This document shows, one piece after another, positions 4,272 through 59,405 of a stretch of 64,000 nucleotides of DNA. Each line of letters opens with the position of its first letter. Position 1 is the stretch's first letter. The position numbers and the translations under genes were made by a program. The stretch spans positions 1 to 64,000 of the forward strand of contig JAQWUP010000065.1 of the NCBI GenBank assembly GCA_029242085.1. Direction: 5' to 3'. The stretch is from Porticoccaceae bacterium (lineage in GTDB: Bacteria > Pseudomonadota > Gammaproteobacteria > Pseudomonadales > Porticoccaceae). The notes below the pieces were generated by a model. The model was not told where the DNA came from. It did no database searches and saw only the letters and a list, made by a program, of their open reading frames with translations.

Positions 4272-5471
4272 TTAGCCAGCCAAAGCCTGATCCAAATCAG
4301 CAATAATATCTTCTGCTGCCTCAAGTCCAGCAGATATCCTCACCAGACCCTCAGTAATGCCGTGTTCAGCTCGCTCTGCTGGGGTATAAACCGAATGTGT
4401 CATACTGGCTGGATGCTGAATCAACGTTTCGGCATCACCCAAGCTGACGGCTAATTTCGCCAACTTGAGCCTATTTAGCATGCGCACCCCCGCTTCGCGG
4501 CCCCCCTTTAACTCCAGGGCAATCATGCCACCGAAACCATCCATCTGCTTACAGGCAACCTGATGCCAAGGGTCATTTTTTAAACCGGGGAAAAACACCT
4601 GATCAACTGCCGGATGCTGCTCCAACATCTCTGCAATCCTCTGAGCATTATGACAGTGACGCTCCATGCGCAACTGCAATGTTTTAATCCCTCGCAAAAT
4701 CAAAAATACTGTCATTGGTGCAATCACCGCACCTGTCATGTCCTTTAAACCAAATAATCGAATCTGCTGAATGATGTCAGCATCGCCCACTACAGCACCG
4801 GCAATCAAATCACCATGACCACCTAGATACTTAGTCGCTGAATGCACCACAATATCTGCACCTAGGGTCAGGGGACGTTGTAATGCCGGTGTGCAATAGG
4901 TGTTATCCACCATTACTGTGATACTAGTGCTGAAATCTTTAACTAAGACGCTGAGGGCTTCGATATCAATAACTCGCATGTTTGGATTCACTGGAGACTC
5001 AAAATAAACTACCTTGGTTTTGTCAGTTAGTTTGGCTTTTACCTCGGCATGATCAGTGAAATCCGCATAACAAATATCAACGCCAAATTTTTTGAGGCCA
5101 TGCTCCAAAAATGAAAAGGTGCAGCCATAGAGAGTTTCATCTACCAGAATTTGATCACCTGGCCCTACCAGAGTCCAGAGCGTGGCGGTAATAGCACCCA
5201 TACCAGATGCAGTTGCCAATGCCGCTTCGCCCTCTTCTAAATCAGCCAGACGCGCCTCAAGAATCTCCTGGGTCGGATTTGAAATACGGCTGTAAAAATG
5301 GCCCTGTTGCTCACCAGCAAAGCGGCTGGCTCCCTGCTCAACATTGTCAAAGGCAAAGGTAGAGGTCATGTAAATTGGTGGATTTAAGGAACCCTCATTA
5401 GCCTTACAATCATAGCCGGCGTGGACGGAGCGAGTGGCAAAGGAGAGCCGATATTCATTATCGGACGACAT
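4272..5471 (-). CDS. mdeA: Methionine gamma-lyase (Cys/Met-metabolism PLP enzyme)
   Basis: PLP enzyme of the trans-sulfuration family, about 399 residues. The PLP-binding Lys lies in SATKYLGGHGD. The active-site loop DETLYGCTFSF carries both the Tyr and the Cys that mark methionine gamma-lyases; cystathionine gamma-synthases and beta-lyases usually lack this Cys. The predicted reaction is L-methionine to methanethiol, 2-oxobutyrate and ammonia. ATG at 5471 is preferred over TTG 5486 and ATG 5483 from alignment with the family N-terminus and a weak GAG-type ribosome site. The divergent neighbour is an Lrp-type regulator, the same layout as mdeA-mdeR in Pseudomonas putida. Another trans-sulfuration activity remains possible. 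Confidence 0.85.
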   Translation of the reverse strand: MSSDNEYRLSFATRSVHAGYDCKANEGSLNPPIYMTSTFAFDNVEQGASRFAGEQQGHFYSRISNPTQEILEARLADLEEGEAALATASGMGAITATLWTLVGPGDQILVDETLYGCTFSFLEHGLKKFGVDICYADFTDHAEVKAKLTDKTKVVYFESPVNPNMRVIDIEALSVLVKDFSTSITVMVDNTYCTPALQRPLTLGADIVVHSATKYLGGHGDLIAGAVVGDADIIQQIRLFGLKDMTGAVIAPMTVFLILRGIKTLQLRMERHCHNAQRIAEMLEQHPAVDQVFFPGLKNDPWHQVACKQMDGFGGMIALELKGGREAGVRMLNRLKLAKLAVSLGDAETLIQHPASMTHSVYTPAERAEHGITEGLVRISAGLEAAEDIIADLDQALAG

Positions 5472-5605
5472 GGTGTTTCTCATCAAAAATGACTAATTAA
5501 GTGTCAAGAATAACGCCACTATCAGGGTCAAATCTCTCTTTTAAGTTTGCTGAAATTTAAAATAATAGCTATATTCACTTAATTAATGTTAATTAAAGGT
5601 GAATT
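5472..5605. promoter_or_regulatory. Divergent control region, lyase / Lrp regulator
   Basis: 134-base AT-rich gap between two divergent starts. It holds two copies of TTAATTAA, at 5579-5586 and 5589-5596, directly upstream of the regulator's ribosome site AAAGGTGA (5595-5602). Lrp-family proteins bind AT-rich palindromic sequence, so this is a plausible autoregulatory site. I could not place a convincing -35/-10 pair for the lyase. Confidence 0.5.
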
Positions 5606-6085
5606 ATGCCAAGTTTTAAACTAGACCGTATGGATCGCCGGATTCTAGAAGAAATACAGGCTGATGGCAGCATTAGTAATTTGGAGTTGGCCGAACGGGT
5701 CGGGCTATCTCCCTCACCCTGTGCCAGGCGCATGAAACTGCTATACGAAAGCGGCATTATTAGCCGTCAGATTACAGTGCTAGATCAAAAGAAGGTGGGG
5801 CTACCAATTAGCATTTATATTTCTGTGAGTCTGGATCATCAAAGCCCAAAGCGACTAAAAAACTTCGATAGCAAAGTCACTGATTGGCCAGAGGTCGTTG
5901 AATGCTCACTAATTACTGGCAGTGATACGGATTATTGGTTAAAAGTGGTTATGCCTGATATGGATTATTACCAGAAATTCTTGCTCGATAAGCTAAACCA
6001 GATTGAGGGCGTGAGTAGCATTAGAACCAGTTTTGTATTACGTCAGGTAGTGCAGAGAACTGCGCTTCCTCTGAATCATATATAG
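5606..6085 (+). CDS. Lrp/AsnC family regulator (MdeR-like)
   Basis: 159-residue feast/famine regulator. The N-terminal winged-helix HTH is at about 5-60 (LDRMDRRILEEIQADG, then ISNLELAERVGLSPSPCARR), and the C-terminal ligand-sensing ACT-like domain contains TDYWLKVVMPDMDYYQKF. It is transcribed away from the methionine gamma-lyase and most likely activates that gene in response to methionine or a related amino acid. The start ATG 5606 has a good ribosome-binding sequence. It converges on der with a 43-base gap. Confidence 0.92.
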   Translation: MPSFKLDRMDRRILEEIQADGSISNLELAERVGLSPSPCARRMKLLYESGIISRQITVLDQKKVGLPISIYISVSLDHQSPKRLKNFDSKVTDWPEVVECSLITGSDTDYWLKVVMPDMDYYQKFLLDKLNQIEGVSSIRTSFVLRQVVQRTALPLNHI

Positions 6086-6128
6086 GTTGTTTTTATACTC
6101 AGTCAGGACGACATTGGCAACAGAGGTA

Positions 6129-7535
6129 TCAACGCTTCCTGTTGTTAGCGTCATGTCGCTTAGCGTACTTTATAACCTTCTTGCGCTTAAATACTGGTTT
6201 CTCACCCGCTTTGGACTTATTGCCATAGGGGTTGTCACCAGTCCGATATTCTACCTTTACTGGCGTACCGTGCAGACCCAGCTCACGACGGAAGATCTTT
6301 TCCAAATAACGGGTGTACTGCGCAGGCACAGAATCAGTCTGATTACCATGAATAATGATTACCGGCGGATTACGGCCACCGGCATGAGCAAAGCGCAACT
6401 TGATACGGCGGCCATGCACCATTGGTGGCTGATGCTCTTCCACCGCTCCCTCAAGCACCTTGGTTAAACGGGAGGCGCTCAATGTATCTGTGGCCGCAGA
6501 GTAGGCTGCTCCAATAGAGTCATAGAGATTACCCACGCCTGTACCATGCAATGCAGAGATAAAGTGCACATCGGCAAACTCGGCAAACTGTAGGCGACGT
6601 TTAATATCCGCTTTTATTTTCTCGCGCTTTTCCGGTGCCAACCCATCCCACTTATTAATACCAACAACTAGGCCGCGGCCAGCATCAATCACCGAACCCA
6701 TCAGGTGAAGGTCTTGATCGACCAGCCCTTCTTGGGCATCTACCATCAGCACCACCACATTAGCATCATCTATAGCCTGCAACGTTTTGACAATTGAGAA
6801 TTTCTCAATTGCCAACTTGATATTTTTGCGCTTACGAATGCCCGCAGTATCAATCAAGGTGTAGTGCTGACCATGGCGCTCATAATCAATATAAACGCTG
6901 TCTCGGGTAGTACCCGCCTCATCAAATACCACTACACGGTCTTCGCCGAGCAGACGATTAACCAGAGTAGACTTGCCCACATTGGGACGACCAACAATAC
7001 CGATCTTGATATTGTTTAGGCCGCTATTGTCCGGTTCAACAAATTGAGGGAAAGGCTCCAGTAACTCTTCCATCATCGAGCGCACGCCTCGGCCATGGGT
7101 AGCTGTGGTAGGAAACATCCCTGAAAAACCCAGCTGATAAAAATCTGCCAGCGCTGCTGCTGGATCAAGGCCATCAATCTTATTGGCCACCAAATAAACC
7201 TTACGGTTTTTCTGGCGCAACTTTTCAGCAATCATATAGTCAGCGGCAAGTAACCCAGATCGACAGTCGACAATAAACAGGACCACATCTGCCTCATCCA
7301 TAGCTAGGAGTGACTGCTCGGCCATGCCCACATCAATACCCTCTTCCTCACCACTGATACCACCTGTATCAATCACCATAAAGCGGCGATCATACATCTC
7401 TCCGTCGCCGTATTTACGATCGCGGGTCAAACCGGAATAGTTAGCCACAAGCGCGTCTCGACTTTTAGTGAGTCGATTGAACAGCGTAGATTTGCCAACA
7501 TTAGGGCGTCCGACAAGAGCGATAACAGGAATCAT
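6129..7535 (-). CDS. der: Ribosome-associated GTPase Der (EngA)
   Basis: Essential GTPase of 50S subunit assembly, with the diagnostic tandem G domains in 468 residues. The first has GRPNVGKSTLFNRL near residue 8, DTGG and NKID. The second has GRPNVGKSTLVNRL near 180, DTAG and NKWD. A KH-like C-terminal domain follows, ending in a Lys/Arg-rich tail. It sits downstream of bamB in the family's usual hisS-yfgM-bamB-der group, but here an aminotransferase and its regulator (7.6-9.75 kb) have come between bamB and der. It therefore needs its own promoter, because a terminator lies directly upstream. Confidence 0.98.
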   Translation of the reverse strand: MIPVIALVGRPNVGKSTLFNRLTKSRDALVANYSGLTRDRKYGDGEMYDRRFMVIDTGGISGEEEGIDVGMAEQSLLAMDEADVVLFIVDCRSGLLAADYMIAEKLRQKNRKVYLVANKIDGLDPAAALADFYQLGFSGMFPTTATHGRGVRSMMEELLEPFPQFVEPDNSGLNNIKIGIVGRPNVGKSTLVNRLLGEDRVVVFDEAGTTRDSVYIDYERHGQHYTLIDTAGIRKRKNIKLAIEKFSIVKTLQAIDDANVVVLMVDAQEGLVDQDLHLMGSVIDAGRGLVVGINKWDGLAPEKREKIKADIKRRLQFAEFADVHFISALHGTGVGNLYDSIGAAYSAATDTLSASRLTKVLEGAVEEHQPPMVHGRRIKLRFAHAGGRNPPVIIIHGNQTDSVPAQYTRYLEKIFRRELGLHGTPVKVEYRTGDNPYGNKSKAGEKPVFKRKKVIKYAKRHDANNRKR

Positions 7536-7540
7536 GGGAT

Positions 7541-7573
7541 AAAAAATGCCGCAGGTTTTAATTGCGGCATTCT
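7541..7573 (-). terminator. Rho-independent terminator of the aminotransferase gene
   Basis: On the minus strand AATGCCGCA pairs with TGCGGCATT (arms at 7563-7571 and 7545-7553) and a run of T follows. It lies 75 bases past the aminotransferase stop and just before the der start, separating the two units. Confidence 0.8.
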
Positions 7574-7647
7574 ACTTTAGTTTGCTGTGCTTAACACCCC
7601 AGAATATCAAGCATGATCAGGTAACCTTGCATTTCCAACAATTAGTT

Positions 7648-8976
7648 CTAATCAATACTAGCTAATACACGGCGTATGCTTTCAAACATACTACTTATGT
7701 CATCTGGCTTTGAATTTAAAAAGGGCGAAAACTGTAATATATCCATGCTGTTACGAATCACCAAATCTTCATCCCAAAAGCAATGTTTATGTACCTCTAA
7801 GCCGCGAGCACCCGGATGAGCCTCTCTGGGAGCTAATTCAATCGCCCCCATCAGGCCAAAATTTCGTACATCGATCACCATCGGATGGTCATCAAACTGA
7901 TGGATGGCTTCTGCAAATAGAGTCTCTAGCTGCAGGGACTGTTCAAAGCTTCCCTCCTGTTCATAGACCTCCAAAGTCGCCAGCCCTGCGGCTGCGGCTA
8001 CTGGGTGGCCTGAATAGGTATAGCCATGAAACAGCTCGATAGTTTGCTCCGGGCCCTGCATAAAGGCCTGATAAATGGCATCCGTAGCCAGCACAGCACC
8101 CATAGGGATCACACCATTAGTTAGACCTTTAGCAGTGGTAATAAGGTCTGGAGTGACTCCAAACCGCTGCGCCGCAAACGGCGCTCCCACGCGCCCAAAA
8201 GCAGTTATCACTTCATCAAAAATTAAAAGAATACCGTGCCTTGTGCAGATGTCTCGCAGGCGCTCTAGGTATCCAACTGGTGGCGGTAAGATGCCAGTAG
8301 AACCGGGCACCGGCTCAACAATTACTGCCGCTATGGTACTGGGGTCATGGAGAGCGATCAGATGCTCAAGTTCGTCTGCCAGATGTGCGCCCCACTGCGG
8401 TTGGCCATGACTAAATGCGGCGTGCTCTAGACTGTGGGTGTGGGGTAAGTGATCGACACCATTGATTAGGTTGGCGCTGAACATTTTGCGGTTAGGGGCT
8501 ATTCCACCCACGGAAATCCCCCCGAAGTTGACACCATGATAACCACGCTGGCGGCCAATAAGCCTGGTACGACTAGCGTCTCCTTTTGCTCGATGATAAC
8601 CCAGAGCTATTTTTAAGGCGGTATCAACAGACTCAGAGCCAGAGTTGGTGAAAAAAGCATGATCAATACCTTGGGGAGCCAGATCAGTAAGTTTATCTGC
8701 CAGCTCAAAAGCCTTGTTGTGCCCAAGCTGAAAACCCATGCACAGATCTAACTCGCCGACTTGCCGCTGCACGGCTTCGACAATTTTTGGATGACAGTGG
8801 CCTATCCCTGATGTCCACAGACCGGAAAAACCATCGTAAATTTTGCGACCATCGTTACTGATGTAATGGTGACCCTGAGCAGATGCAATTAATCGCGGGG
8901 ACTGCTTGAAGTCACGATTAGCAGTGAAGGGCATCCAGTAGGCATCCATAGCTTGAGCAGTTGGCTGGTTTTTCAT
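7648..8976 (-). CDS. Class III aminotransferase, beta-alanine/omega-amino acid:pyruvate type
   Basis: 442-residue PLP-dependent fold-type I enzyme. It has TNSGSESVDTALK for phosphate binding, IFDEVITAFGR with the PLP-nitrogen Asp, and DLITTAKGLTNG with the Schiff-base Lys near 285. The N-terminus (MDAYWMPFTANRDFK) and the YHGVNFGGISVGG segment resemble beta-alanine:pyruvate aminotransferases. The predicted role is transfer of omega-amino groups (beta-alanine, putrescine-derived or other amines) to pyruvate. The gene is monocistronic, with its own terminator and a divergent XRE-cupin regulator. The exact amine donor cannot be read from sequence. Confidence 0.9.
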   Translation of the reverse strand: MKNQPTAQAMDAYWMPFTANRDFKQSPRLIASAQGHHYISNDGRKIYDGFSGLWTSGIGHCHPKIVEAVQRQVGELDLCMGFQLGHNKAFELADKLTDLAPQGIDHAFFTNSGSESVDTALKIALGYHRAKGDASRTRLIGRQRGYHGVNFGGISVGGIAPNRKMFSANLINGVDHLPHTHSLEHAAFSHGQPQWGAHLADELEHLIALHDPSTIAAVIVEPVPGSTGILPPPVGYLERLRDICTRHGILLIFDEVITAFGRVGAPFAAQRFGVTPDLITTAKGLTNGVIPMGAVLATDAIYQAFMQGPEQTIELFHGYTYSGHPVAAAAGLATLEVYEQEGSFEQSLQLETLFAEAIHQFDDHPMVIDVRNFGLMGAIELAPREAHPGARGLEVHKHCFWDEDLVIRNSMDILQFSPFLNSKPDDISSMFESIRRVLASID

Positions 8977-9200
8977 AAGTCACTCATATTTGAATTTTGA
9001 CAATTATTTTAAGGAGCGAATTAATTACCCCTAGGGCTTCTGATGGCATGGCCATATCCATATCAGCGGTTACTCTATAGCTCACCCATCATGTTAAACA
9101 ACCAGTTACCTATAAATAATTATCATATTGATTTTATTAACTTTTATCATTTAACCGTTTACTATACTAAACATAAATTAATTATTAGAGGCATTATTTT
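8977..9200. promoter_or_regulatory. Divergent control region, aminotransferase / XRE-cupin regulator
   Basis: 224-base AT-rich region between divergent genes. A possible -10 (TATACT, 9163-9168) for the regulator lies inside a short inverted repeat, GTTTA (9157-9161) and TAAAC (9168-9172). That arrangement fits an autorepression operator. No good -35 is present. The regulator's ribosome site is AGAGG shortly before the ATG at 9201. Confidence 0.45.
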
Positions 9201-9749
9201 ATGGACAGTGAAACTGGAGCTCGACTAAAAGAGATTCGTAACAAAACCGGACTCTCCCAGCGTCAGCTTGCCAGAGCTTCTGGTGTGGCTAATGCCACTA
9301 TCTCGCAGATTGAGTCCGGGGCTGTAAACCCTACGGTTGGCATGTTAAAAAAGGTACTCGGAGGTATACCTATCAGCCTGAGTGACTTCTTTGCGGACGA
9401 CTTTAGCTTCTCAGACCAGGTATTTTTTAGTGCCGACAAACTATTGCAGCTGGGAGAGGGAGGGGTCTCCTATCTACAGGTAGGCAACCATCTGCACAAC
9501 AGGTCTATTCAGATGATGAGGGAGTGCTATCAGCCGGGTAGCCATACAGGTAAGCACGCCATTCAACATGAGGGTGAGGAATGCGGAATCATTCTAAGTG
9601 GTGCGCTAGAGGTACAGGTCGGAGATGAAAAGAAGATATTAAAAGCTGGAGATGCTTATTATTTTAAAAGCACTGTTCCCCACCACTTTAAAAATGTCGG
9701 CCGCGACCAATGTGAGCTTATTACTGCTTGCTCGCCCCCAAGCTTCTAG
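9201..9749 (+). CDS. XRE-family HTH regulator with C-terminal cupin (PuuR-like)
   Basis: 182-residue two-domain regulator. The N-terminal XRE helix-turn-helix is at about 1-60 (ARLKEIRNKTGLSQRQLARA, ISQIESGAVNPTVGML), and a C-terminal cupin sensor at about 105-175 contains HEGEECGIILSGALEVQVGD and KSTVPHHFKNVG. This architecture is that of PuuR and other amine or amino-acid responsive repressors. Its divergent placement suggests it controls the aminotransferase, probably sensing the amine substrate. The ligand is not predictable. Confidence 0.9.
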   Translation: MDSETGARLKEIRNKTGLSQRQLARASGVANATISQIESGAVNPTVGMLKKVLGGIPISLSDFFADDFSFSDQVFFSADKLLQLGEGGVSYLQVGNHLHNRSIQMMRECYQPGSHTGKHAIQHEGEECGIILSGALEVQVGDEKKILKAGDAYYFKSTVPHHFKNVGRDQCELITACSPPSF

Positions 9750-9865
9750 CGATGTAACCCAGACGATGGACTTAGCCAGCTTTATATATCGCTTGAATCA
9801 GCTGACCATAGCGCCATAACCACCCAGGGTAATGTGGTCGAACAAAACAGCCCAATATACTGATG

Positions 9866-9889
9866 CTAGATGGCCTTGCGGCCATCTAG
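9866..9889. terminator. Perfect 10-bp hairpin between convergent genes
   Basis: CTAGATGGCC (9866-9875) and GGCCATCTAG (9880-9889) enclose a TTGC tetraloop. The hairpin touches the bamB stop codon (9890). Neither side has a strong T-run, so it may be a weak bidirectional terminator or an mRNA-stabilising 3' end for the XRE-cupin gene and bamB. Confidence 0.55.
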
Positions 9890-11041
9890 TTATTTAATCC
9901 CGTAAGCTGCTATTGAGCCGTCGTTGGCCTGCACAATTAGGCTGCCTCCGATGCTAAGCATCGGAGCACTGACGCCACTACCATTGACTTTCTTGCGACC
10001 AATAAAACTGCCATCGACTGGGTCAAGCAGATGCAGGTAACCTTCGCTATCAGCCACTGCTACTGTGCCTGCCAATTTCGCTGGGCCTGTCACCTGGCGT
10101 AAAAATAACTGGTCATTAGTCCAGACTGGCTGGCCGCTACCGGCCTTAAATGCACGCACTGCATCCTCGTCTTCGGTAACGTAAACCTGGTCTAGACTGA
10201 AGGCTGGGGCATGGTGAGAGGAACTGTCTTGAAACCATAGGCTTCTGCCTGTGCCGCGAGAAAGGGCACCTAAACGACCCTGATAGGTAACGGCATAGAT
10301 AACGTCACCGACTAACAGGGGCTCACCGTCAATATCAACCATACGCTCTAGCTCAGTGCGGCCTTTGGGCACTGCCAGACGAGACTCCCAGATCAAGGAA
10401 CCATTGTCTGGATTAAAGGCCCCAAGCTTACCTGTATCAAATCCAGTCAATACCATAGTGTCGGTCACCAAAGATTCACTGGTACCGCGCACACTTAAAA
10501 TAGGAGCATCGCCGTCATGTTGCCAAATCTCATCGCCAGTGTTGGCGTCCAGAGCAAATAGTCTGTCGTCAATGGTTTGCACCGCAACAATTTCGCCATT
10601 AGATTTGGGACTAGAAACAACTTCCGAGCTGACTTGGCCGATCCATAATACCGCGCCAGTATCGGCTTCAAGAGCATATACTTTGCCCTCAATAGTGCCG
10701 ATCATTACAAGGCCTGCACCGTAACCCACGCCACCAGAAACCTGAACGTCGAGCTCTACTTTCCATACTTTTTTGCCGTTACTGATGTTGAGGGCAGTTA
10801 CAGTACCCTCGTGATCAGCAGCATAGACTCTCTCAGTATCCGCCGTGGGGCGCAGACTGTTGCGAAAATCTTGATTTCCCGAACCAACTTTTGCCGACCA
10901 TTCACGCTTAATCGTAACCTGTTGTTTGAATTTGACTAATTCAGCGGGAGTAATCGCGGCATCGTCATCACCACCAAAAATACTGCAGCCGCCAATGAGC
11001 ATAGATGCTAAAAGCATCACAATCAGTGAAGAATTTCTCAT
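9890..11041 (-). CDS. bamB: Outer membrane assembly lipoprotein BamB
   Basis: 383-residue lipoprotein of the BAM complex, which inserts beta-barrel proteins into the outer membrane. A signal peptide with lipobox IGGC places the lipidated Cys at 19. The rest is a PQQ-type beta-propeller with repeats such as TGAVLWIGQVSSEVVSSPK and TGDEIWQHDGDAPILS. It overlaps the yfgM stop by 4 bases (ATGA), so the two are translationally coupled. It is the last gene of the hisS-side operon here; der, usually next, is displaced. Confidence 0.97.
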   Translation of the reverse strand: MRNSSLIVMLLASMLIGGCSIFGGDDDAAITPAELVKFKQQVTIKREWSAKVGSGNQDFRNSLRPTADTERVYAADHEGTVTALNISNGKKVWKVELDVQVSGGVGYGAGLVMIGTIEGKVYALEADTGAVLWIGQVSSEVVSSPKSNGEIVAVQTIDDRLFALDANTGDEIWQHDGDAPILSVRGTSESLVTDTMVLTGFDTGKLGAFNPDNGSLIWESRLAVPKGRTELERMVDIDGEPLLVGDVIYAVTYQGRLGALSRGTGRSLWFQDSSSHHAPAFSLDQVYVTEDEDAVRAFKAGSGQPVWTNDQLFLRQVTGPAKLAGTVAVADSEGYLHLLDPVDGSFIGRKKVNGSGVSAPMLSIGGSLIVQANDGSIAAYGIK

Positions 11042-11748
11042 TTCACAGCTCCTCTTGTTTGTTCACTATTTTCAACTGGAGCAGTCTCAGCAGGACGTAC
11101 TTGACTGATTTTTAGCTGCAGTATGTTTGCAACCATCTGATCACGAGATTCATTTGATGCCAAAGCAGATTCATAGGCGGTAAATGCGGCAGCGTTGTTA
11201 CCTTGCAGTAAATAGAAGTCGCCTTTGGCTTCTTCATAGGAAGATTTCATCTCAGCTGTGTCAATACCTTGCACCATTTGCAATGCCACATCCACATTGC
11301 CGCGCGCCGCCTCAACCCGAGCCAGACGCAACCGGACCAGGCGTTCGGTAGGTGGTGCTGGATCATTATTTAGGGCCCAATTAAGCTCGTTCACGGCACC
11401 GTCCAAATCCCCATTGTCGACTGCTAGCTTGGCTTTTAGCATAGCCGCAAACTGTGCGTAGGCTGAATCGCTATGATTGTCTTTAAGCTGATCAGCAGAT
11501 AGATTTATTTGCGCCTGTTGGGTGCTATCGAGCTGCTCACCTGCCTCGGTTGCCGATACTATTTCAATCATATCCAAATAGACCTCAGAGGCCTGATTGG
11601 TCTGGATCTCTTGCTGTTGTTCCCAGTACTGCCAGCCGAAATAGCCTCCAATTACCAAAACCACGGCTGCGATAGTCGGTATTCCGTTTGCAGCCCACCA
11701 ACGCTTTAAGGCTTCAATTTGCTCTTCTTCAGAAAGATGGTCTGCCAC
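11038..11748 (-). CDS. yfgM: YfgM family membrane-anchored TPR protein
   Basis: 236-residue protein with a cytoplasmic N-terminus (SEEEQIEALKRWW), one membrane span at about 18-36, and a periplasmic tetratricopeptide-like region. E. coli YfgM is an ancillary subunit of the Sec translocon that works with PpiD in handing proteins to periplasmic chaperones. It sits between hisS and bamB, the conserved position. hisS ends 9 bases upstream and bamB overlaps downstream. Confidence 0.93.
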   Translation of the reverse strand: MADHLSEEEQIEALKRWWAANGIPTIAAVVLVIGGYFGWQYWEQQQEIQTNQASEVYLDMIEIVSATEAGEQLDSTQQAQINLSADQLKDNHSDSAYAQFAAMLKAKLAVDNGDLDGAVNELNWALNNDPAPPTERLVRLRLARVEAARGNVDVALQMVQGIDTAEMKSSYEEAKGDFYLLQGNNAAAFTAYESALASNESRDQMVANILQLKISQVRPAETAPVENSEQTRGAVK

Positions 11749-11757
11749 AGGTGTTCC

Positions 11758-13032
11758 TCAATCAGTGAAATAAGTCGTCAATAAGTTGCCCAGTTCTTGC
11801 TGGTCAACAGTTTTCTGGGGTTTATCTTCGCGGAGAAATTTTACCCCTACTGTTGCGGATGCCATTTCGTCTTCGCCGAGTATCAGTGCGACTGCGGCTC
11901 CGCTTTTATCTGCTTTCTTAATTTGCGATTTAAAACTGCCGCCACCGCAATGGCTTTCAATACGAATATTCGGACACTGGCTGCGCAGTTGATCTGCTAG
12001 AACCAACGCCTCCTGTTGTATATCCCCCACTGCAACTATGTATAGGTCAACAGTCTGGGCGATACTATCGGGGACAACGGCCAACTCGTCAAGCAGCAAC
12101 ACCAGTCTTTCTATACCCATTGCAAAACCAACGCCTGGGCAGGATTTTCCACCGAGTTGCTCTACTAGGCCATCGTAGCGGCCACCAGCACAAACTGTAC
12201 CCTGAGCCCCAAGGCTAGTGGTGACCCATTCAAAAACGGTTTTGGAGTAATAATCGAGGCCCCGCACTAGTCGGGGGTTAATCTCATAGGCAATATTAGC
12301 GCCATCCAATACGGCACATAACTGCTCAAAGTGGTCTCGGGACTCCTGGTCAATAAAGTCAGCCAGTTTTGGGGCTTCATTTAACAGCGCCTGGGTATGT
12401 TGATTTTTACTATCCAAAATACGCATAGGGTTAGTCTGCAACCGACGCCGACTATCTTCATCGAGCTGGTCTTGCTGGGCGACGAGATAATCAACCAGCG
12501 CGGCTCGATAAGTCTTGCGATCTGCTGATGTGCCGAGGCTATTAATCTGCAGAGTTACCTCATGATCTATTTTTAATACTTTCCATAGACGCGCCGTAAT
12601 CAGTAATAGCTCCGCATCAATATCTGGCCCATTTAAACCAAAGGCTTCTACACCAATCTGGTGAAACTGGCGCAAGCGGCCTTTCTGCGGACGCTCGTGA
12701 CGGAACATAGGCCCGCTGTACCATAGACGCTGGGTTTGATTATGTAAAAGCCCATTTTCTGTGCAGGCGCGAACACAGCCTGCGGTGCCCTCAGGTCGGA
12801 GACTGAGGCTGTCGCCATTGCGGTCATCGAAGCTGTACATTTCTTTTTCGACTATATCGGTGACCTCACCTACCGCTCGCTTAAACAGCTCGGTCTGTTC
12901 AAGTATCGGAAAGCGTATCTCTCGGTAGCTATAACGGCCTAACACCTCGGCAACAGTTCTCTCAAGATACTGCCATGTTGCCGACTGCTCGGGAAGCAGG
13001 TCGTTCATGCCGCGGATGGATTGAAGTTTCAT
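11758..13032 (-). CDS. hisS: Histidyl-tRNA synthetase
   Basis: Class II aminoacyl-tRNA synthetase of 424 residues. Motif 2 contains [19 protein letters not shown], the histidine-specific loops include [15 protein letters not shown], and motif 3 is [17 protein letters not shown]-terminal anticodon-binding domain follows. The N-terminus [10 protein letters not shown] is typical. It lies 18 bases downstream of ispG and is part of the ispG-hisS-yfgM-bamB run. Confidence 0.98.
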
Positions 13033-13050
13033 AATTGTATTATTACTCTT

Positions 13051-14175
13051 TTAAGCTTTGGCAATTAAGTTATCTGCATCTTTGGCCAGCTCAATCTCTT
13101 TGGCCGCGGCCCTAGTGCGAATCCGCGCCTCTAATTCGTCAACTAGGTTGTCATTGCCCAACTTATGGTCGGGCACACCATCGATATAAACCAGATTAGC
13201 TGGCGAGCCACCGGTCAGCCCAAAATCAGACTCCTTTGCTTCCCCTGGGCCATTGACAATGCAGCCAATAATGGACACATCCATAGGCACGGTAATATCT
13301 TCAAGACGGTTCTCTAATTCGTTGACGGTATTAATGACATCAAAGTTCTGCCGTGAACAGCTGGGGCAGGCTATAAAGTTAATACCTTTGCTGCGCAATC
13401 TTAAACTGCGCAGCATATCCCAGGCCACCTTGGCCTCTTCGGCTGGGTCCGCGGCCAATGAAATGCGCACTGTATCGCCAATACCATCAAGCAACAGCGC
13501 ACCAAGACCGATGGCCGACTTTACTGTGCCTGAGCGGAGACCACCAGCTTCGGTAATACCAAGATGTAATGGTTGCTCAATGCGCTTAGCTAGATCTCGG
13601 TAGGCTGCCACAGCCATAAAAATATCTGAGGCTTTCACACTCACTTTGAAGTCTTGGAAATCATACTTGTCGAGCAGTTCGACATTGCGCATGGCAGACT
13701 CAACCAAGGCTTCGGCGGTGGGTTCACTGTATTTGCGCAAGAGGTCCTTACCCAGGGAGCCAGCATTAACCCCAATGCGAATAGGAATGCTAAGGTCGCG
13801 GGCCTTGGCGATCACCTCACGTAGCCGGTCTTCTCTGGTGATATTACCGGGATTGATGCGTAGACAGTCAACACCTAGATCGGCTACCCGCAGAGCAATA
13901 TTGTGATCAAAGTGAATATCAGCAACTAGGGGAATATCGACAAGCTTGCGAATTCGACCGAAGGCTTCTGCCTCCTCGAGCGAGGGAACGGACACTCGCA
14001 CTATATCGGCGCCCGCTAGCTGAATACGTTTTATTTGCTCTACGGTGGCAGCAACATCCCCGGTGCTGGTGTTGGTCATGCTCTGCACGGAAATAGGCGC
14101 ATCGCCGCCTACCGGAACATTGCCTACCATAATCTGCCGCGACTTGCGTCTTACTATTGGAGTTTTACTAAACAT
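13051..14175 (-). CDS. ispG: 4-hydroxy-3-methylbut-2-enyl diphosphate synthase (IspG/GcpE)
   Basis: [4Fe-4S] enzyme of the MEP isoprenoid pathway that converts MEcPP to HMBPP. Length is 374 residues, the usual bacterial size. The N-terminal TIM-barrel part contains ISVQSMTNT and [12 protein letters not shown]. The C-terminal Fe-S domain shows ISCPSCSRQ-like Cys residues ([13 protein letters not shown]) and CIVNGPGE. It starts only 8 bases after the pilF stop. The rodZ gene that usually separates pilF and ispG is absent. Confidence 0.98.
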
Positions 14176-16902: not shown

Positions 16903-18624
16903 TTAGGCAACCACTTCTAAGCCGTAATGGCGCGACACCATCATGATCGCTTCGACGAGGCCCAGGGTGTCTTTGTCGGTATTGAGATTGCTGATAAATT
17001 CGCGATCGATCTTGAGACCATCCAGCGGCAGACGCTTGAGGTAGATCATCGACGAGTAACCGCTGCCAAAATCATCAATTGAGAAGCGAGTACCCATATC
17101 GCGAATCTTTTTGATCTTGTCGACCACCGATTCAAAGTCATCAATAAGCAGATTTTCAGTCACTTCAAGGGTGAGCATGTCCGGGCTGATATCGTAGCTT
17201 TTAAGGCTGTGCTCAAGGGAGCTAATCAGGCCCGGGTCATGAAACTGTTTTGGGCTTATATTCACCCCCAGCTGCATATCTGGCGTCCAGATACCGCTGT
17301 CGAGCATATTGCGCAGGTATTCGCAGGATGTGCGAATTACCCAGAGGCCGACATCGACAATCATGCCGGAAGCTTCAAGAATAGGGATAAAGTCAGCGGG
17401 GGTATGCATCGCATGGCCGGAGTGTATCCAGCGCAACAGCACTTCGCCGCCCACCACTGCCCCGGTATGGGTAGAGACCTGAGGCTGGAGGTAGAGATCG
17501 AACTCCTGATTAACCACTGCTTTGCGCAGGCTCGACTGCAGGGTACTACGCTGCTGTGCCTGACGGGTAATCTGTGTATCAAATAGCATAATGGTATCGC
17601 GGCCGCGGCGCTTGGCTTCAAACATAGCGCTCTCGGCCTGCTGAATCGCCTGCTCTGCAGTGACCAGCTGATCGTAAAGCAGGGTAATACCGACGCTGGC
17701 GGTGACTATAACTTCGCCATTTTCGGTAAAGTGGGGGCGTGCAATGATGCAGCGAATTACATTTGCCAGCGCCAGCGCCCTCTCTTTTGCCTGTTCTGGG
17801 GTTGTGGCCAGGTCCTTGATAAACAGCAGAAACGCATCACCGGCAACCTGCGTCACCTGCATCGTTTCGATGAGCATGGTCTGGATCGTTTCATGGGCGC
17901 GTTCGAGTATCTGCGCGCCGATATGTTTGCCCAGGGATTCGTTGATAGAGTTTAAGTGATCCAGATCGATTAGTAGCAGTGCACCGCAGGCGTTGTCGTC
18001 ACGGTCTAGATCGATATAGCTGTTGATGCTTTTGAGCAGAGGTTTACCTATGGGCAGGCCAGATAGGATTTCGGCTGCTTGGGGGGCGGGGCTAATTATT
18101 GGCTGAGGGCTTTTATTAGGCGCAGGGCTGTTATTTGGCTCAGGGCTGTAGGCTGTTTTGGAGCTTTCAACGAGATTGGAGATAGCTGCTGATGCGGGGG
18201 GTCCTATGCGTTGAGAGCTGGTCTCGATGCTCTCTAGGCTGTCGGTGGCAAACTCCTCTACCACCATCTGCGCCAGTGCTGGCAGGGGATAGAGCATAAT
18301 ACACAGGACATTATCGGCATCTTCCACCGGGCCCTGAGATACCACAATTTCGTTATCTTCTAGAGTATTTTCTGAGCGCCACAAAATACCGGGAAGTTGA
18401 TCTTTTTCGAGTTTATTAACGACCAGAACAAGCTGGGCGATAGCGGCTTGATAGTCTCTGTCTGACTCTTCACCGAGGGCGGTGCCGATAATTTCTGTGC
18501 GCTGACAGCGCAGTAGTGACAGAGCTTTGGCATTGGCATCGATGCATACGCCGTAGGCAAAAAAGAGAGTCCCGAAAGGCGCCGTATCCAATACTTTTTT
18601 GTAAAGGTGGTTTTTTTCGCGCAT
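16903..18624 (-). CDS. GGDEF-EAL protein, truncated by premature stop in the EAL domain
   Basis: 573-residue product with, in order, a PAS-like N-terminal region (about 8-115), a Pro-rich linker with SPxPxx repeats (160-182), a GGDEF domain with the degenerate motif AGDAF (261-265), and an EAL domain with EVL (394-396), LEVTENLL and IDDFGSGYSS. The frame ends at GLEVVA, where the family continues EGVE. The general-base Glu, the following Glu and the late Gln region are lost, so c-di-GMP hydrolysis is very unlikely. The degenerate GGDEF argues against synthesis. It may be a pseudogene or a degenerate sensor. It lies between iscX and ndk. Confidence 0.85.
   Translation of the reverse strand: MREKNHLYKKVLDTAPFGTLFFAYGVCIDANAKALSLLRCQRTEIIGTALGEESDRDYQAAIAQLVLVVNKLEKDQLPGILWRSENTLEDNEIVVSQGPVEDADNVLCIMLYPLPALAQMVVEEFATDSLESIETSSQRIGPPASAAISNLVESSKTAYSPEPNNSPAPNKSPQPIISPAPQAAEILSGLPIGKPLLKSINSYIDLDRDDNACGALLLIDLDHLNSINESLGKHIGAQILERAHETIQTMLIETMQVTQVAGDAFLLFIKDLATTPEQAKERALALANVIRCIIARPHFTENGEVIVTASVGITLLYDQLVTAEQAIQQAESAMFEAKRRGRDTIMLFDTQITRQAQQRSTLQSSLRKAVVNQEFDLYLQPQVSTHTGAVVGGEVLLRWIHSGHAMHTPADFIPILEASGMIVDVGLWVIRTSCEYLRNMLDSGIWTPDMQLGVNISPKQFHDPGLISSLEHSLKSYDISPDMLTLEVTENLLIDDFESVVDKIKKIRDMGTRFSIDDFGSGYSSMIYLKRLPLDGLKIDREFISNLNTDKDTLGLVEAIMMVSRHYGLEVVA
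18082..18147 (-). repeat. In-frame 18-bp tandem repeats in the GGDEF-EAL linker
   Basis: Units at 18130-18147, 18112-18129 and 18094-18111, plus a 12-bp partial at 18082-18093, encode SPEPNN, SPAPNK, SPQPII and SPAP. The units differ mainly at a few positions. They form a proline-rich spacer between the PAS-like region and the GGDEF domain. In-frame unit length allows slippage without frameshift. Confidence 0.8.
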
Positions 18625-37278: not shown

Positions 37279-39129
37279 ATGGCTGAAAAAAAACCGGGCA
37301 TTGTTCGCCGCTTCTTCCGATTTATAGGCAATGTATTAACGGCTATTCGCTACCTCTTTAGCCTGCTGTTTGTTGGCTTCTTTATCCTCATTGTTGTCGG
37401 CATGTTTGCCGAAGATATGCAGCCAATCCCGGATAAAGGCGCTCTCTACCTGGCACCCAGCGGTGTGCTGGTAGACCAAAAAGCCTATACCGACCCCTTG
37501 GACCAGATTCTTTCAGGCAGTTCTCGGCGCGACTCAGAGACTCTGGTTAGGGATATTATTGAAGCCCTCGACAGCGCCCGCAATGATAGCCGCATTACCC
37601 ACCTGCTGCTCGATACGGACTATATGGCTGGCGGTGGTATCAGCAAACTCGAAGAAATCAGCGCGGCTCTTTTACGTTTTAAGAAAAGCGGCAAGCCAAT
37701 TATTGCAGTGGGCGATAACTTCAATCAGCAGCAATATTTTCTCGCCTCTCACGCCGATGAGATTCTTCTCAATCCGTTGGGCGCGGTGAACATCAACGGC
37801 TTTGCAACCTATCGCAGCTATTTTAAAGACGCGTTGGATAAGCTTAAAATCAATATTAATGTGTTTCGTGTCGGCGATTATAAAAGTGCTGTAGAACCCT
37901 TTCTGGGCAATAGCATGCCCCCCCAAGTAAAGCAGGAGAGTCGCGAATTAATCGACTCGCTGTGGCAATTCTATAGCTCGCAGGTAGAGCAGTTGCGGGG
38001 CCTCCCCGATGGAGCCATCGACGATTACGCCAATAATCTGCACCTTAAACTGCAGGCGGCCAATGGCGATAGTTCGGCACTGGCCAAACAGCAAGATCTG
38101 GTAGATCAGATTGTGACCAGATCACAGATGTTCGCTTACCTCAATGAGGTCCTTCCTGGCACGGATGGCGAGTTCGACAGTATCAATATGAAAGCTTACC
38201 TCAACCATAGTCGCCTCAGCACCAGAACCAGTGCCGCGGCCAAGGCGCATAAAATCGCGCTGGTGGTTGCCAAGGGGTCAATTGTGGATGGCGAGCAACC
38301 AGAGGGAAGCATCGGCGGAGACACAATGGCGGGCATTTTCTCCAGACTGCGAGATGATAATAATGTAAAGGCAGTGGTGTTGCGTATCGACACTGGTGGT
38401 GGCAGCGCCTTTGCCTCGGACGTTATTCGCGATGCTATTTCTGCCACCCAGAAGAAAGGGATTCCAGTGGTCGTTTCCATGGGTAGCTATGCAGCATCTG
38501 GTGGTTACTGGATAGCCGCAGATGCCGATCGGGTGCTGGCCCTGTCAACAACCCTGACCGGCTCGATTGGTGTCTTCGGTGTCATACCCACTGTCGAAGA
38601 TTCGCTCGCGGCTCTGGGTATATATTCGGACGGTGTTGGCACCACAGATATCGCTGGCATGATGCAGCTAAATCGCCCCATGACCCAGCAGAGTAAAATG
38701 ATTTTCCAAGCCGGTGTGGACAATGTGTATACCCGCTTTATCAGTCTGGTCGCCGATGCGCGCAACTCAACCCCAGCAGCTGTCCATGAGATTGCTCAGG
38801 GTCGGGTTTGGACCGGTGAGAAGGCACTGGATTTGGGCTTAGTTGACCAGCTGGGAGATCTAAATGACGCCATTGTGGTGGCGGCGGAGTTAGCCAATCT
38901 GGCAGATTACGAAGTAGATTATCGGCGCAAACCGCTGACGGTTTTTGAGCAGCTGATGATGGAGATGAATACCAATATTAGCGCTTCATTATCTGGTCTC
39001 GGTATCCGCAGCATATTGCCTGAGAGTTTACGTCAGCAGGCAGTAGAGGTTTTAAAACCAATGCAGGTTCTGGATACATTGAATGATCCGCGCGGCGTCT
39101 ATCTCTACTGCGGCCAATGCCCAATCTAG
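37279..39129 (+). CDS. sppA: Signal peptide peptidase SppA, 67K type
   Basis: 616-residue inner-membrane serine protease of the long (tandem-domain) type, which degrades cleaved signal peptides. There is one N-terminal span at 25-43. The catalytic Lys202 is in the N-terminal domain (VGDYKSAVEPF), and the nucleophile Ser407 in the C-terminal domain (MGSYAASGGYW), the same split dyad as in E. coli. It is convergent with hda. Confidence 0.95.
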   Translation: MAEKKPGIVRRFFRFIGNVLTAIRYLFSLLFVGFFILIVVGMFAEDMQPIPDKGALYLAPSGVLVDQKAYTDPLDQILSGSSRRDSETLVRDIIEALDSARNDSRITHLLLDTDYMAGGGISKLEEISAALLRFKKSGKPIIAVGDNFNQQQYFLASHADEILLNPLGAVNINGFATYRSYFKDALDKLKININVFRVGDYKSAVEPFLGNSMPPQVKQESRELIDSLWQFYSSQVEQLRGLPDGAIDDYANNLHLKLQAANGDSSALAKQQDLVDQIVTRSQMFAYLNEVLPGTDGEFDSINMKAYLNHSRLSTRTSAAAKAHKIALVVAKGSIVDGEQPEGSIGGDTMAGIFSRLRDDNNVKAVVLRIDTGGGSAFASDVIRDAISATQKKGIPVVVSMGSYAASGGYWIAADADRVLALSTTLTGSIGVFGVIPTVEDSLAALGIYSDGVGTTDIAGMMQLNRPMTQQSKMIFQAGVDNVYTRFISLVADARNSTPAAVHEIAQGRVWTGEKALDLGLVDQLGDLNDAIVVAAELANLADYEVDYRRKPLTVFEQLMMEMNTNISASLSGLGIRSILPESLRQQAVEVLKPMQVLDTLNDPRGVYLYCGQCPI

Positions 39130-55907: not shown

Positions 55908-56867
55908 TCACCAGGGCAAAGCATCCAAGTCCACATTGCCACCACTTAAAATAATCGCCACCCGCTTACCCTGAAACTGCTCTGGCTGATCCATAATCGC
56001 GGCCAGTGGTACCGCACAGGAAGGTTCGATAATCACTTTGAGTCTGGTCCAGATTAGACGCATAGCTTCAACAATACGCTGTTCTGAGCAGAGTAAAATA
56101 TCATCTACGTTCTCGGTGATAGCTGCAAAATTGCGCACACCCACAGTGGCACGCAGGCCATCGGCAATCGTATTCGGGGTGTATTCGGCTAGTCGTTCGC
56201 CGGCCTTCAATCCCAACCATGTATCTTTGGCCCCTTCAGGTTCCGCACCTATAATCTGGGCATCGCTCATCCCTTTAGCATAGATACCAGTGCCGCCTAA
56301 AAGACCACCGCCACCAACTGGCGCTATAATAATATCCACGGGTTTATCGACCTGTTCTAACAGCTCCAGAGCGGCCGTGCCCTGACCGGCAATAATTAAA
56401 TCATTATCAAATGGATGGACCAATGTGTAACCCTGCTGCGCAATTGCATTGGCGACCGCGAGTTCGCGTGCGGCCATGGTCGGCTCACAAAGAAGTACCT
56501 TGGCACCATAACCCTGAACCGCGGCTATTTTGACGGAGGGTGCATTCTCTGGCATCACTACTGTGCAGGGGGCACCTCGCAATGCGGCAGCCCAGGCCAG
56601 CGCAGCACCATGGTTACCGGAGGAATGTGTGACCACGCCTTTTTGCAGACTCGCTTCGTCCATCGAAAATACCGCATTGCATCCACCACGCGCCTTAAAG
56701 GCACCAATTTTTTGAAAATTTTCGGCCTTAAATAATAGCTCACAGCCAATAATTTTATTCAGCGCGCGGCTCTCTAAAATTGGAGTGCGGTGGATATATG
56801 GCGCGATGCGCGCATGCGCCCGCTGGATATCTTGGACAGTTATTTTCATTGGTCCAGTGTAGTCCAA
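55908..56867 (-). CDS. Threonine/serine dehydratase-like PLP enzyme (short form)
   Basis: 319-residue fold-type II PLP enzyme. The PLP Lys is in FKARGGCNAVF, the substrate loop is SSGNHGAALAWAAA and the phosphate loop is GGGGLLGGTG. It has no C-terminal ACT domain, so it is not an isoleucine-feedback IlvA. Catabolic threonine dehydratase, serine racemase and threo-3-hydroxyaspartate ammonia-lyase all share this size. Likely start ATG 56849 (MKITVQDIQRAH) or ATG 56867. Confidence 0.9.
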   Translation of the reverse strand: MDYTGPMKITVQDIQRAHARIAPYIHRTPILESRALNKIIGCELLFKAENFQKIGAFKARGGCNAVFSMDEASLQKGVVTHSSGNHGAALAWAAALRGAPCTVVMPENAPSVKIAAVQGYGAKVLLCEPTMAARELAVANAIAQQGYTLVHPFDNDLIIAGQGTAALELLEQVDKPVDIIIAPVGGGGLLGGTGIYAKGMSDAQIIGAEPEGAKDTWLGLKAGERLAEYTPNTIADGLRATVGVRNFAAITENVDDILLCSEQRIVEAMRLIWTRLKVIIEPSCAVPLAAIMDQPEQFQGKRVAIILSGGNVDLDALPW

Positions 56868-56922
56868 TTATCGTCTTACTGACGAGTAAAGTCCTCAGTG
56901 GGCTTATAGAAGCACCCTTTCA

Positions 56923-57549
56923 CTAGCCATCAATAAACACCGGCAACGCAACGTATTCCCAGAGAATAACTGTAGCCACCAATACCGCGACGGCATAGAC
57001 CAGAGCCACCGCAAAAAGGGCGCTAGTATTGAGTGTGCCGCGATCTTCCGGCACATTCATCAGTATCGGCACGCCGATATAAATCAAGCGAATGGTGTAG
57101 CAACAGATCAGGGTGGCAATCATAATATCCAACCACCAAATAGGCCGCAAAGCGCAAATGCCAGCCACAAAAATAGGCATACAGGCGTAGCCGATCATTA
57201 CCATACCTTTGATTGGATAGGAGTCTTCTGCGTTGTAGGTTTTAGACATCCAGTGGGCCATTGCACCAATCACTACAACTGCGCTGACCAAGGCAAGATA
57301 GAACAGCACCATAAGTGGTATAGCGCTATCTGGGGTGATCTTTACAATATGATCACCGGCCTCCCAACCATAATGGGTGGTGCCAAAATAAAAACTCAGG
57401 GGCGGCACTGCAGCCATAATTAATACAGTCAGCAATCTGCATTTAATTGCCTTTACCGGCTGATTCGCCAGTCGCCGCCAGGTCGCCGTAGGAAAAAAAC
57501 AAATGCCTAAAATCTCTCTCATTAGGACTTTATAACCGCTCTGTTTCAT
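56923..57549 (-). CDS. Yip1 family membrane protein
   Basis: 208 residues with about five membrane spans; the N-terminal [19 protein letters not shown] is typical of bacterial Yip1/DUF1282 proteins. ATG 57549 is chosen because AAGGAGAG lies just upstream; longer starts run into the TauE remnant. Function unknown. After the deletion described at 57747, the nearest recognisable promoter upstream is the FNR-type ccoN promoter at 58043-58085. Confidence 0.85.
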
Positions 57550-57571
57550 AAAACTCTCCTTGTCTCTGGTG

Positions 57572-57748
57572 TTAATGGTGATGCGCATGAGCACTGGACA
57601 GTTGGATTTGTAAAAGCATCCACAGCCCCATAAATATAATGATCAGTCCCATTAGCCGACGTAGTGAGCGGGACTGTAACCAGCGTGCTAAATGATGTGA
57701 AAACCAACCTCCCGCCAACATGGCGGCCAAAGTGCAGATAGGGCCCGA
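57572..57748 (-). pseudogene. TauE/SafE-like protein, C-terminal remnant
   Basis: 58 readable codons ([20 protein letters not shown] at the start, a final hydrophobic helix with [14 protein letters not shown], then AHAHHH and stop). This matches the end of the sulfite-exporter-TauE/SafE-type membrane protein usually encoded downstream of ccoNOQP/ccoGHIS. It has no start and is in a different frame from the ccoN piece upstream. It is a remnant of the far end of a deleted cluster. Confidence 0.75.
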
Positions 57749-57749
57749 C

Positions 57750-57896
57750 GTTTAACTCTGGCCAAACTAATTGAGCGGCGATAATCACTCCGACGAGCAT
57801 TCCTACTATGCCCCAGACGACTGTTATTAGAGCGAATTGTTTAACGATTTTGGTGTTGTACTGCGGAGGGTTACCGGAAGCGCGCTCACTGATCAT
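57750..57896 (-). pseudogene. ccoN: ccoN N-terminal remnant (cbb3 oxidase subunit I)
   Basis: 49 codons from ATG 57896, with ribosome site AAAGGAAT, encode the conserved start of Cco[21 protein letters not shown] and then [10 protein letters not shown]. After LN the family continues with a phenylalanine-rich loop and the heme-ligand His region, but here similarity stops at once. Reading continues out of the TauE frame to a stop at 57546, giving a 116-residue hybrid with no oxidase core. None of the heme or copper His residues remain. Confidence 0.82.
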
Positions 57897-58042
57897 ATCT
57901 ATTCCTTTGATCGTCACTTAAACTCGATCATCACTAAAAAGTCACATACATCTTTAGCTAAATCTGTGTATGCCTAAAGTATAGACAACATGGATAATTT
58001 CCGAGAAATTATTGCTCGTGCTTTTTGCTTATTTGAATAGGT

Positions 58043-58085
58043 ATTATCGGTTGAGAGATAGAGCTAAATCATTGATATGGGTCAA
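58043..58085 (-). promoter_or_regulatory. FNR/ANR box and -10 of the lost ccoN gene
   Basis: TTGATATGGGTCAA (58072-58085) matches the FNR consensus TTGAT-N4-ATCAA at 9 of 10 positions. On the minus strand GATAAT (58048-58043) follows so that the box is centred about 41.5 bases before the predicted start, the class II activator position. It lies about 180 bases before the ccoN ATG. The site looks intact even though the oxidase genes are gone. Confidence 0.75.
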
Positions 58086-58152
58086 TCCTCGTCAAATGCT
58101 TTATCGGGGACGTAAAAAAACGCCGACTAGAAACTAGAAGACCTTTTTTAAC

Positions 58153-58187: not shown

Positions 58188-59405
58188 TTACATATCGCGT
58201 CCACGATTGGCAGCAATACGTAAACGCAGTGCGTTAAGCTTAATAAAGCCCTCTGCATCAGCCTGGTTGTAGGCGCCACCATCATCATCAAAGGTAGCAA
58301 TATTGGCATCAAACAGACTGTCGCTTGACGACTGTCGGCCCACAACACAGACATTGCCCTTGTACAGTTTAATGCGCACCTCACCATTGACCACATCCTG
58401 AGTTTGGTCAATCGCGGCCTGCAGCATTAAACGCTCAGGCGCCCACCAGTAGCCGTTATAAATCAGTTTGGCGTACTTGGGCATCAGCTCATCTTTCATA
58501 TGCGCGACTTCGCGATCCAAGGTTAATGACTCAATGGCACGGTGTGCTTTCATCATTACGGTACCGGCTGGGGTTTCGTAGCAACCACGAGACTTCATAC
58601 CCACATAGCGATTTTCAACAATATCCAAACGCCCAACGCCATTGGCACCAGCCACTTTATTCAAGTATTCAATCACTGTGGCGGCTGACATGGCTTTGCC
58701 ATCAATGGCTACAATATCGCCCTTTTCATAGCTGATGGTCATGTAGGTCGGCTGGTCCGGTGCCTCTTCTGGTGACACAGTCCAGCGCCACATATCGTCT
58801 TCGGCTTCGGACCAGGGATCTTCCAGATTGCCACCTTCATAAGAGATATGCAGCAGGTTGGCATCCATAGAGAAAGGCGATTTCTTACCGCGCTTCATCT
58901 CCACCGGAATACTGTGCTTTTCACAGTAATCCATTAACTTGTCGCGGGAGTTGAGGTCCCATTCACGCCAGGGTGCGATAACCTTAATTCCGGGTTTGAG
59001 CGCATAGGCACCCAGTTCAAAACGCACCTGATCGTTACCTTTGCCCGTGGCACCATGAGAAATAGTATTGGCACCGGTTTCGTTGGCAATTTCAATCAGA
59101 CGCTTGGCAATCAGTGGACGAGCAATAGAGGTACCCAACAGGTACTCACCTTCGTAAATGGTATTGGCGCGGAACATCGGAAACACAAAATCCCGCGCGT
59201 ACTCTTCGCGCAGATCATCAATATAGATCTCTTTTACACCCAGGGCCTCGGCTTTGGCGCGAGCGGGTTCAACCTCTTCACCCTGACCAATATCGGCGGT
59301 AAAAGTAACCACTTCGCAGTTATATTCTTCCTGCAGCCATTTCACAATGACTGAAGTATCCAGGCCGCCTGAATAGGCTAAAACTACTTTATTAACGTCT
59401 GACAC
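58188..59405 (-). CDS. argG: Argininosuccinate synthase
   Basis: 405-residue ATP-dependent ligase of arginine synthesis (citrulline plus aspartate). The PP-loop [15 protein letters not shown], the [15 protein letters not shown] loop and the [16 protein letters not shown] segment are conserved. The start is GTG 59405 with AAAGGAT upstream. The formyltransferase gene ends 59 bases before it on the same strand. Confidence 0.98.

Follow-up and report, generated by a model that had tools for sequence, protein, structure and literature searches.

Remnants of two genes between argG and a Yip1 gene

The window, that is the whole stretch of 64,000 nucleotides analysed here, carries on its minus strand a gene that we recognise from its sequence as presumably argG, an FNR-like box, the start of ccoN, the end of a second gene, an intact gene for a Yip1-domain protein and a gene for a PLP enzyme that we take to be close to threonine dehydratase (Table 1).

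Table 1. Features of the locus; G058 is a genome of the same genus in which the region is intact
Feature	Position	Strand	Basis
argG, upstream flank of the cluster	58188..59405	-	Collinear with argG beside ccoN in G058, G062, G057, G023 and others
FNR-like box TTGACCCATATCAA, one mismatch to TTGATNNNNATCAA, upstream of the ccoN remnant	58072..58085	-	Identical to the G058 box
ccoN remnant: ATG (57896) and about 57 codons (MISERASG...)	57724..57896	-	TIGR00780; 83% DNA identity to G058 ccoN; codons read
DsbD_2 ("TauE-SafE-like") 3' remnant: about the last 50 codons and the stop	57572..57733	-	PF01925 on the fragment; G058 orthologue
Deletion junction, about 5 nt (CCGCC) assignable to either side	57722..57726	-	Overlay on both G058 sides and other relatives
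Yip1-domain gene, intact, 208 aa from the ATG at 57549	56923..57549	-	PF04893, E 1.4e-25
55-bp spacer, in the place of mscS-corA-cbpA-cbpM in several relatives (about 3.3 kb in G058)	56868..56922	.	Synteny
Threonine-dehydratase-like PLP enzyme, downstream flank	55908..56867	-	PF00291, E 6e-79; synteny in relatives

The minus-strand open reading frame 57917-57546 matches the ccoN model TIGR00780 with residues 19-66 (E 3e-12) and also matches PF00115 (E 6e-6). The TIGR00780 match reaches from position 2 to position 53 of a profile of 474; its score is far under the full-length cut-off, as that of any stub must be, and the complete ccoN of a functional cbb3 cluster is not present. The ATG of the stub is preceded by AAAGGAATAGAT. 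The initial annotation had rightly seen the start of ccoN here, but let it end after 49 codons at the motif WPELN; the similarity extends beyond this point, through NVGPYLHFG.

The second piece, in a different frame from the first, was detected in the frame 57730-57572, which matches PF01925 (TauE) over the last 37 positions at E 1.2e-4, under the family cut-off, and which is 85% identical in amino acids to the G058 protein over 47 residues. That it represents a gene end in another frame had been correctly stated, although it amounts to about 50 codons rather than 58. Its identity as TauE/SafE had to be given up: the full-length G058 orthologue is assigned to PF13386 (DsbD_2, E 7e-52) and has no match to PF01925 at E 0.001. 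"TauE/SafE" is presumably the usual annotation name of this DsbD_2 gene. At E 0.001, no NCBIfam family was found for the Yip1, DsbD_2 and FixH proteins of G058.

The two pieces do meet, as had been noted; the ccoN part, however, passes straight into the DsbD_2 part at 57722-57733, and not at 57740-57755 with a few bases in between, and the second stub ends at 57572. Comparison with relatives showed that ccoN homology runs through CACTTTGG-CCGCC and that DsbD_2 homology starts at CCGCC-ATGTTG. The 5 nt CCGCC would have been common to both sides, as deduced from the relatives, which stand in for the window's own sequence before the deletion. No direct repeats of at least 10 nt were found in 57500-58100. 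A short shared sequence without a long repeat fits RecA-independent illegitimate recombination, and such microhomology may have been the basis of the deletion. A 30-mer taken at the junction had no match in the genome_contigs collection, which may omit the window's own genome.

The intact cluster of a relative and the oxidases of the window's genome

A DNA search covered 50 genomes of the genus, the window's genome among them. Both halves of the junction match one contig of G058 (L048, 15,775 bp) in the same order and on the same strand, the ccoN piece with 83% and the other with 78% identity. The contig reads argG-ccoN-ccoO-ccoQ-ccoP-ccoG-fixH-ccoI-ccoS-DsbD_2/"TauE"-yip1-mscS-corA-cbpA-cbpM-threonine-dehydratase-like gene. 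Families were assigned for mscS, corA and cbpA, and cbpM corresponds to PF13591 (MerR_2); the names cbpA and cbpM, and the label ccoI for a heavy-metal P-type ATPase, are our assumption. The part missing from the window is exactly ccoN(3')-O-Q-P-G-H-I-S-tauE(5'), and in G058 this stretch satisfies the ccoN, ccoO, ccoP, ccoG, FixQ, FixH and FixS models. It measures 8,229 bp in G058 coordinates and comprises seven whole genes and most of two others. Since the intact cluster is collinear with both sides of the junction, one 8,229-bp deletion accounts for it. The initial annotation had reached a similar figure, a single deletion of roughly ten genes (nine are touched relative to G058), and both fragments on which it relied proved real, from their profile matches and from the adjoining intact-cluster genes in G058. 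In relatives, the two truncated genes flank one contiguous gene set in the same order and on the same strand. That they bracket ccoNOQP-ccoGHIS holds for many relatives, but some loci yielded no "tauE" homologue.

Further downstream, between yip1 and the threonine-dehydratase-like gene, mscS-corA-cbpA-cbpM is absent, apparently through a second loss at the locus, judging from gene order in the relatives.

The intervening cco genes are absent from the window's assembly, a draft of 91 contigs that is 82.65% complete. Positions 1-13300 of the G058 contig L048 matched, at the DNA level, only three collinear flanking pieces, so that the cluster DNA, ccoP included, matched nothing else at that level. 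FixO (PF02433) had no match in the assembly, and its sole COX1 match is the ccoN stub; an intact ccoNOQP, present in G058 between argG and the Yip1 gene, was not found in the rest of the assembly. An above-cut-off COX1 match was obtained in 53 of the 56 genomes compared.

Contig C57 of G058 encodes COX3, COX1 and COX2 with a cytochrome c domain, that is an oxidase of the caa3 type. In the window's genome, contig C2 (L157, G000:C2) is collinear with it up to position 9,226, where C2 ends (base 33,905), about 220 bp short of COX3. An assembly gap is thus the most likely reason why the caa3-type oxidase is missing, and we rejected the idea that this genome lost all its oxidases. Because one oxidase was most likely lost to such a gap, not finding cbb3 in the assembly is weak evidence and no proof. 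The caa3-type COX1 of G058 (L087 10978-12490) is divided between two overlapping frames that each correspond to a portion of PF00115, reflecting either a frameshift or a sequencing error. rpoB is absent from the window's assembly; it was found in 28 of the 50 genus genomes, including 21 of the 30 whose completeness is 90% or higher, possibly owing to binning gaps or withheld stretches.

A separate observation concerns window positions 18089-18152. This short segment, which contains an 18-nt tandem repeat (18106-18149), matches several places in L052, around the ccoP-ccoG gap and the fixH end, and one place near the ccoP end in L060.

The cbb3 cluster, yip1 and fnr across the genus

FixO was found in 10 of the 50 genus genomes; among the 30 with a completeness of 90% or more, 6 have it. 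The region downstream of argG is readable in 47 genomes: nine have ccoN there (with the cluster split over contigs in G001, G031, G061 and G070), one is the window, and 37 have no cluster, among which the loci of G009 and G030 reach just 222 and 134 nt past argG. The cluster-less loci form a series of arrangements: argG-mscS-corA-cbpA-cbpM-threonine dehydratase (G002, G056), argG-mscS-corA-threonine dehydratase (G004, G016, G019, G022), argG-mscS-threonine dehydratase (G006, G013, G020), argG-threonine dehydratase (17, plus G009) and argG-rnfE (G005, G008, G010, G014, G034, G063, G064); G017 and G018 each show another arrangement, and the locus of G030 meets a contig end. In G018 (C1, L124, 1484-3604), a gene for a 706-aa molybdopterin oxidoreductase (PF00384) lies with others in the cbb3 place beside argG. 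In G024, a divergent cbb3 cluster accompanied by a yip1 of its own (C56, L054) lies away from an argG locus that has none, the only such case among the 10 cbb3-bearing genomes, which suggests a separate acquisition or a relocation.

The scar of the window is seen in one assembly only, its own. At the same locus in G016 (C12, L152), the end of yip1, with ASVILWEYLAAPVFVDG-stop as its best-kept part, lies about 10-20 nt after the argG stop, and the cbb3 cluster is gone. This remnant comprises the last 17-20 codons (tblastn E 0.001, residues 204-223), and its score of 78 was reached by none of 1000 shuffles (maximum 44). G016 keeps an independent deletion scar of its own. A candidate vestige of the cco promoter in G069 was dropped: it scored 26, whereas shuffled sequences reached up to 31.

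A tree of 44 rows was built from the DNA of argG, rnfE and the threonine-dehydratase-like gene, rpoB being unusable as a marker. The presence of the cluster (8 rows) needs 5 changes on this tree, 4 of them forced by well-supported branches; the three genes belong to this one neighbourhood, in nine rows 42% of the columns are filled, and gain is not distinguished from loss. G058 and the cbb3-bearing G033 fall within one small clade with the window, together with G009, G011, G026, G069 and G018, which lack the region. We rejected the possibility that the cluster in the window had been re-acquired from a G058-like donor: G058 and G033 belong to the window's own clade, and vertical descent with repeated loss suffices. 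With five members of the clade devoid of the cluster, this is our preference over re-acquisition, and not a proof.

The Yip1-domain protein follows the same distribution as the oxidase, occurring in 11 of the 50 genus genomes, namely in all 10 that have FixO and in that of the window. Hence the yip1 of the window is the orphaned last member of its cbb3 cluster. In genome_contigs, 40 loci, some from the same genomes, were retrieved with a Yip1 alignment, a search pattern that came from the cbb3-linked subfamily and so does not survey all Yip1 proteins; 34 have cco genes nearby, in several gammaproteobacterial groups. The six others are four loci cut by a contig end on at least one side (L194, L202, L220, L225) and two matches of 30 residues (L227, L228). 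The gene follows ccoS or DsbD_2 in most loci and precedes ccoN in L207, L208, L209, L214 and L223, three of which are labelled Halieaceae. The literature searches made returned no paper joining Yip1, cytochrome and ccoS, and no Yip1 function.

The 500 nt downstream of argG contain an FNR-like box in 8 of the 9 cbb3-bearing loci and in the window, against none of the 37 loci without the cluster. It has one mismatch in the window and in G058 and none in seven further cbb3-bearing loci, to TTGATNNNNATCAA, which we take to be the FNR consensus; G033 has no box within 500 nt of argG. Five such boxes were found in the window where 3.03 are expected, which is no excess by count, so the evidence lies in the conserved position. 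At this conserved place upstream of ccoN, the box is a predicted site of an FNR-regulated cco promoter.

Crp/Fnr proteins were examined in ten genomes, five with and five without cbb3. An FNR-like protein with a C-x2-C-x5-C cluster in an open frame is present in all five cbb3-bearing genomes (G023, G033, G057, G058, G062), and that of G058 passes the NCBIfam Fnr cut-off. In contrast, fnr is damaged or was not found in four of the five genomes lacking cbb3. In the window's genome it is a pseudogene (L170 1044-1671; G000:C70, about 38,315-38,942), in which a 98-bp internal deletion shifts the frame and parts the cysteine cluster from the remainder; in G018 the frame changes near codon 45-49, in G026 two of the three cysteines are replaced, and in G009 no fnr was found. 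The intact fnr of G011, in which cbb3 is absent, speaks against strict coupling. A second FNR-like paralogue with the cysteines is present in G018, G023, G057 and G058. In this small, non-independent sample of ten related genomes, a coupling of fnr damage to cbb3 loss is a lead. The fnr lesion of the window's genome is separate and lies on another contig, which makes a misassembly at the cco junction less likely.

Age and interpretation of the deletion

The stubs are undecayed. Between the window and G058, dN/dS is 0.085 for the ccoN stub (0.033 over codons 12-57) and 0.033 for the DsbD_2 stub, with synonymous sites near saturation; these values are similar to those of the intact genes yip1 (0.056), argG (0.018) and purN (0.107). 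Only 14 differences from G058 were counted over 106 residues. A few of the changes in the window affect positions at which the compared relatives are conserved (ccoN 23 and 24, DsbD_2 stub 38), so some relaxed evolution is possible. The nearest relative, G009, stands at a dS of 0.44-0.75 in four genes. In a crude simulation (equal rates, no indels), stubs free of selection since the G009 split received 28-47 changes at 0.2 substitutions per site and 41-60 at 0.3, with a stop probability of 0.88-0.94; neither a stop nor the predicted number of changes is seen. Given so few replacements and no stop, the deletion probably postdates the split from G009. The initial suggestion of a recent loss is thus upheld by the low dN/dS and the few replacements in the remnants. 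In G009 argG and the threonine-dehydratase-like gene are adjacent and the whole region is absent; with a deletion younger than the split, G009 would have lost it independently.

In our view the stretch is very probably a genuine, recent deletion scar of a cbb3 cluster in a SAR92-related marine bacterium. In the ancestor, ccoN-O-Q-P-G-H-I-S, the DsbD_2/"TauE-SafE" gene and the Yip1 gene would have lain between argG on one side and the threonine-dehydratase-like gene on the other, and an FNR-type box would have preceded ccoN. A single illegitimate deletion, about 8.2 kb long and using about 5 nt common to both ends, would then have fused ccoN at codon ~57 to the final ~50 codons of DsbD_2. Production of the cbb3 oxidase would have ended; what survived is the promoter region, a pair of stubs that differ in frame, and an orphan yip1. 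The cell may now rely on the caa3-type oxidase, itself seen in relatives only, and the cause may have been a relaxed need for microaerobic respiration, with which the broken oxygen-sensor gene fnr in the same genome would be consistent.

Compatible with this reading, the deletion could be real in only part of the population. The minimal decay of the stubs fits a young, possibly segregating deletion; the assembly holds no second allele, though a binned draft could drop one, and we regard such a polymorphism as unlikely. That a replacement cbb3 cluster lies elsewhere, in the unassembled part of the genome, has a precedent in the divergent cluster of G024, the sole such case among 10; with FixO and a full COX1 absent from the assembly and fnr broken, it seems quite improbable. 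An assembly artefact, in which the assembler misjoined the ends of a real cluster while the population keeps cbb3, would draw on the fragmented, incomplete state of the draft. However, just about 5 nt are common at the join, too little for a k-mer assembler to collapse, and no orphan cco DNA is found in the assembly. Moreover, the flanks are collinear with relatives, fnr is broken in the same genome, FixO is missing in 40 of the 50 genus genomes and another scar exists in G016, all of which makes a misjoin very improbable. Finally, a useful new small membrane protein made from the fused frame is scarcely credible: the frame is open for 116 codons from the ATG, keeps the hydrophobic N-terminal stretch of CcoN and still has the upstream region with the FNR-like box, but past the junction it follows the frame of neither gene, the second stub too shows conservation in the frame proper to it, as a gene that died recently would, and the fusion occurs in no other of the 50 genomes.

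The young deletion scar may be part of a wider process. We tentatively consider it possible that in this genus a whole low-oxygen module (cbb3 with its partners Yip1 and DsbD_2, and after them FNR) is being lost repeatedly and stepwise, with the window just past the first steps, and at the same time that Yip1 is an unrecognised partner in cbb3 assembly or in copper or haem supply. The strict pairing of Yip1 with cbb3 is a concrete lead on an uncharacterised protein. Whether plankton are able to respire in oxygen-poor microzones depends on high-affinity oxidases, and the scar of the window would be a recent step in losing low-oxygen respiration. With a young scar, an intact relative and genomes eroded to various degrees, one can test in which order the oxidase, the partner gene and the oxygen sensor are lost.

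The event is ordinary in kind, cbb3 variability being known and the module often missing in the genus. What is new here is the young scar together with an intact relative, the second, independent scar in G016 and the coupled state of yip1 and fnr; among the literature titles searched, none concerned scars of cbb3 loss in the SAR92 group. Measured against the cbb3-type cytochrome c oxidase cluster ccoNOQP-ccoGHIS, the two stubs are its ends, and with about 57 codons of ccoN kept, no structural or assembly gene is complete in the window. In the parts of the reports available to us, SAR92 strain LSUCC0057 is described with both high- and low-affinity oxidases (PMC6588378), and strain MOLA455 is placed in the SAR92 group by its authors (PMC3907726) and under Porticoccaceae elsewhere (PMC4391266). 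From the available part of the CHUG roseobacter study, aa3 is present in every member and cbb3, with an adjacent fnrL, only in some, oxygen uptake data indicating a lower affinity without cbb3 (PMC9426536). The likeness lies in the presence or absence of cbb3 alongside a universal aa3; there, however, it is a difference between populations, whereas the window offers a visible junction, in another bacterial class, with a separately located, decaying fnr. In SAR11, according to the portion consulted, a nirK-cbb3 region lies beside a crp-fnr regulator in low-oxygen isolates (PMC12816887). Here too cbb3 is a variable trait of marine bacterioplankton, but the SAR11 case is the presence of a region in low-oxygen isolates, whereas the window records a loss that left its scar.
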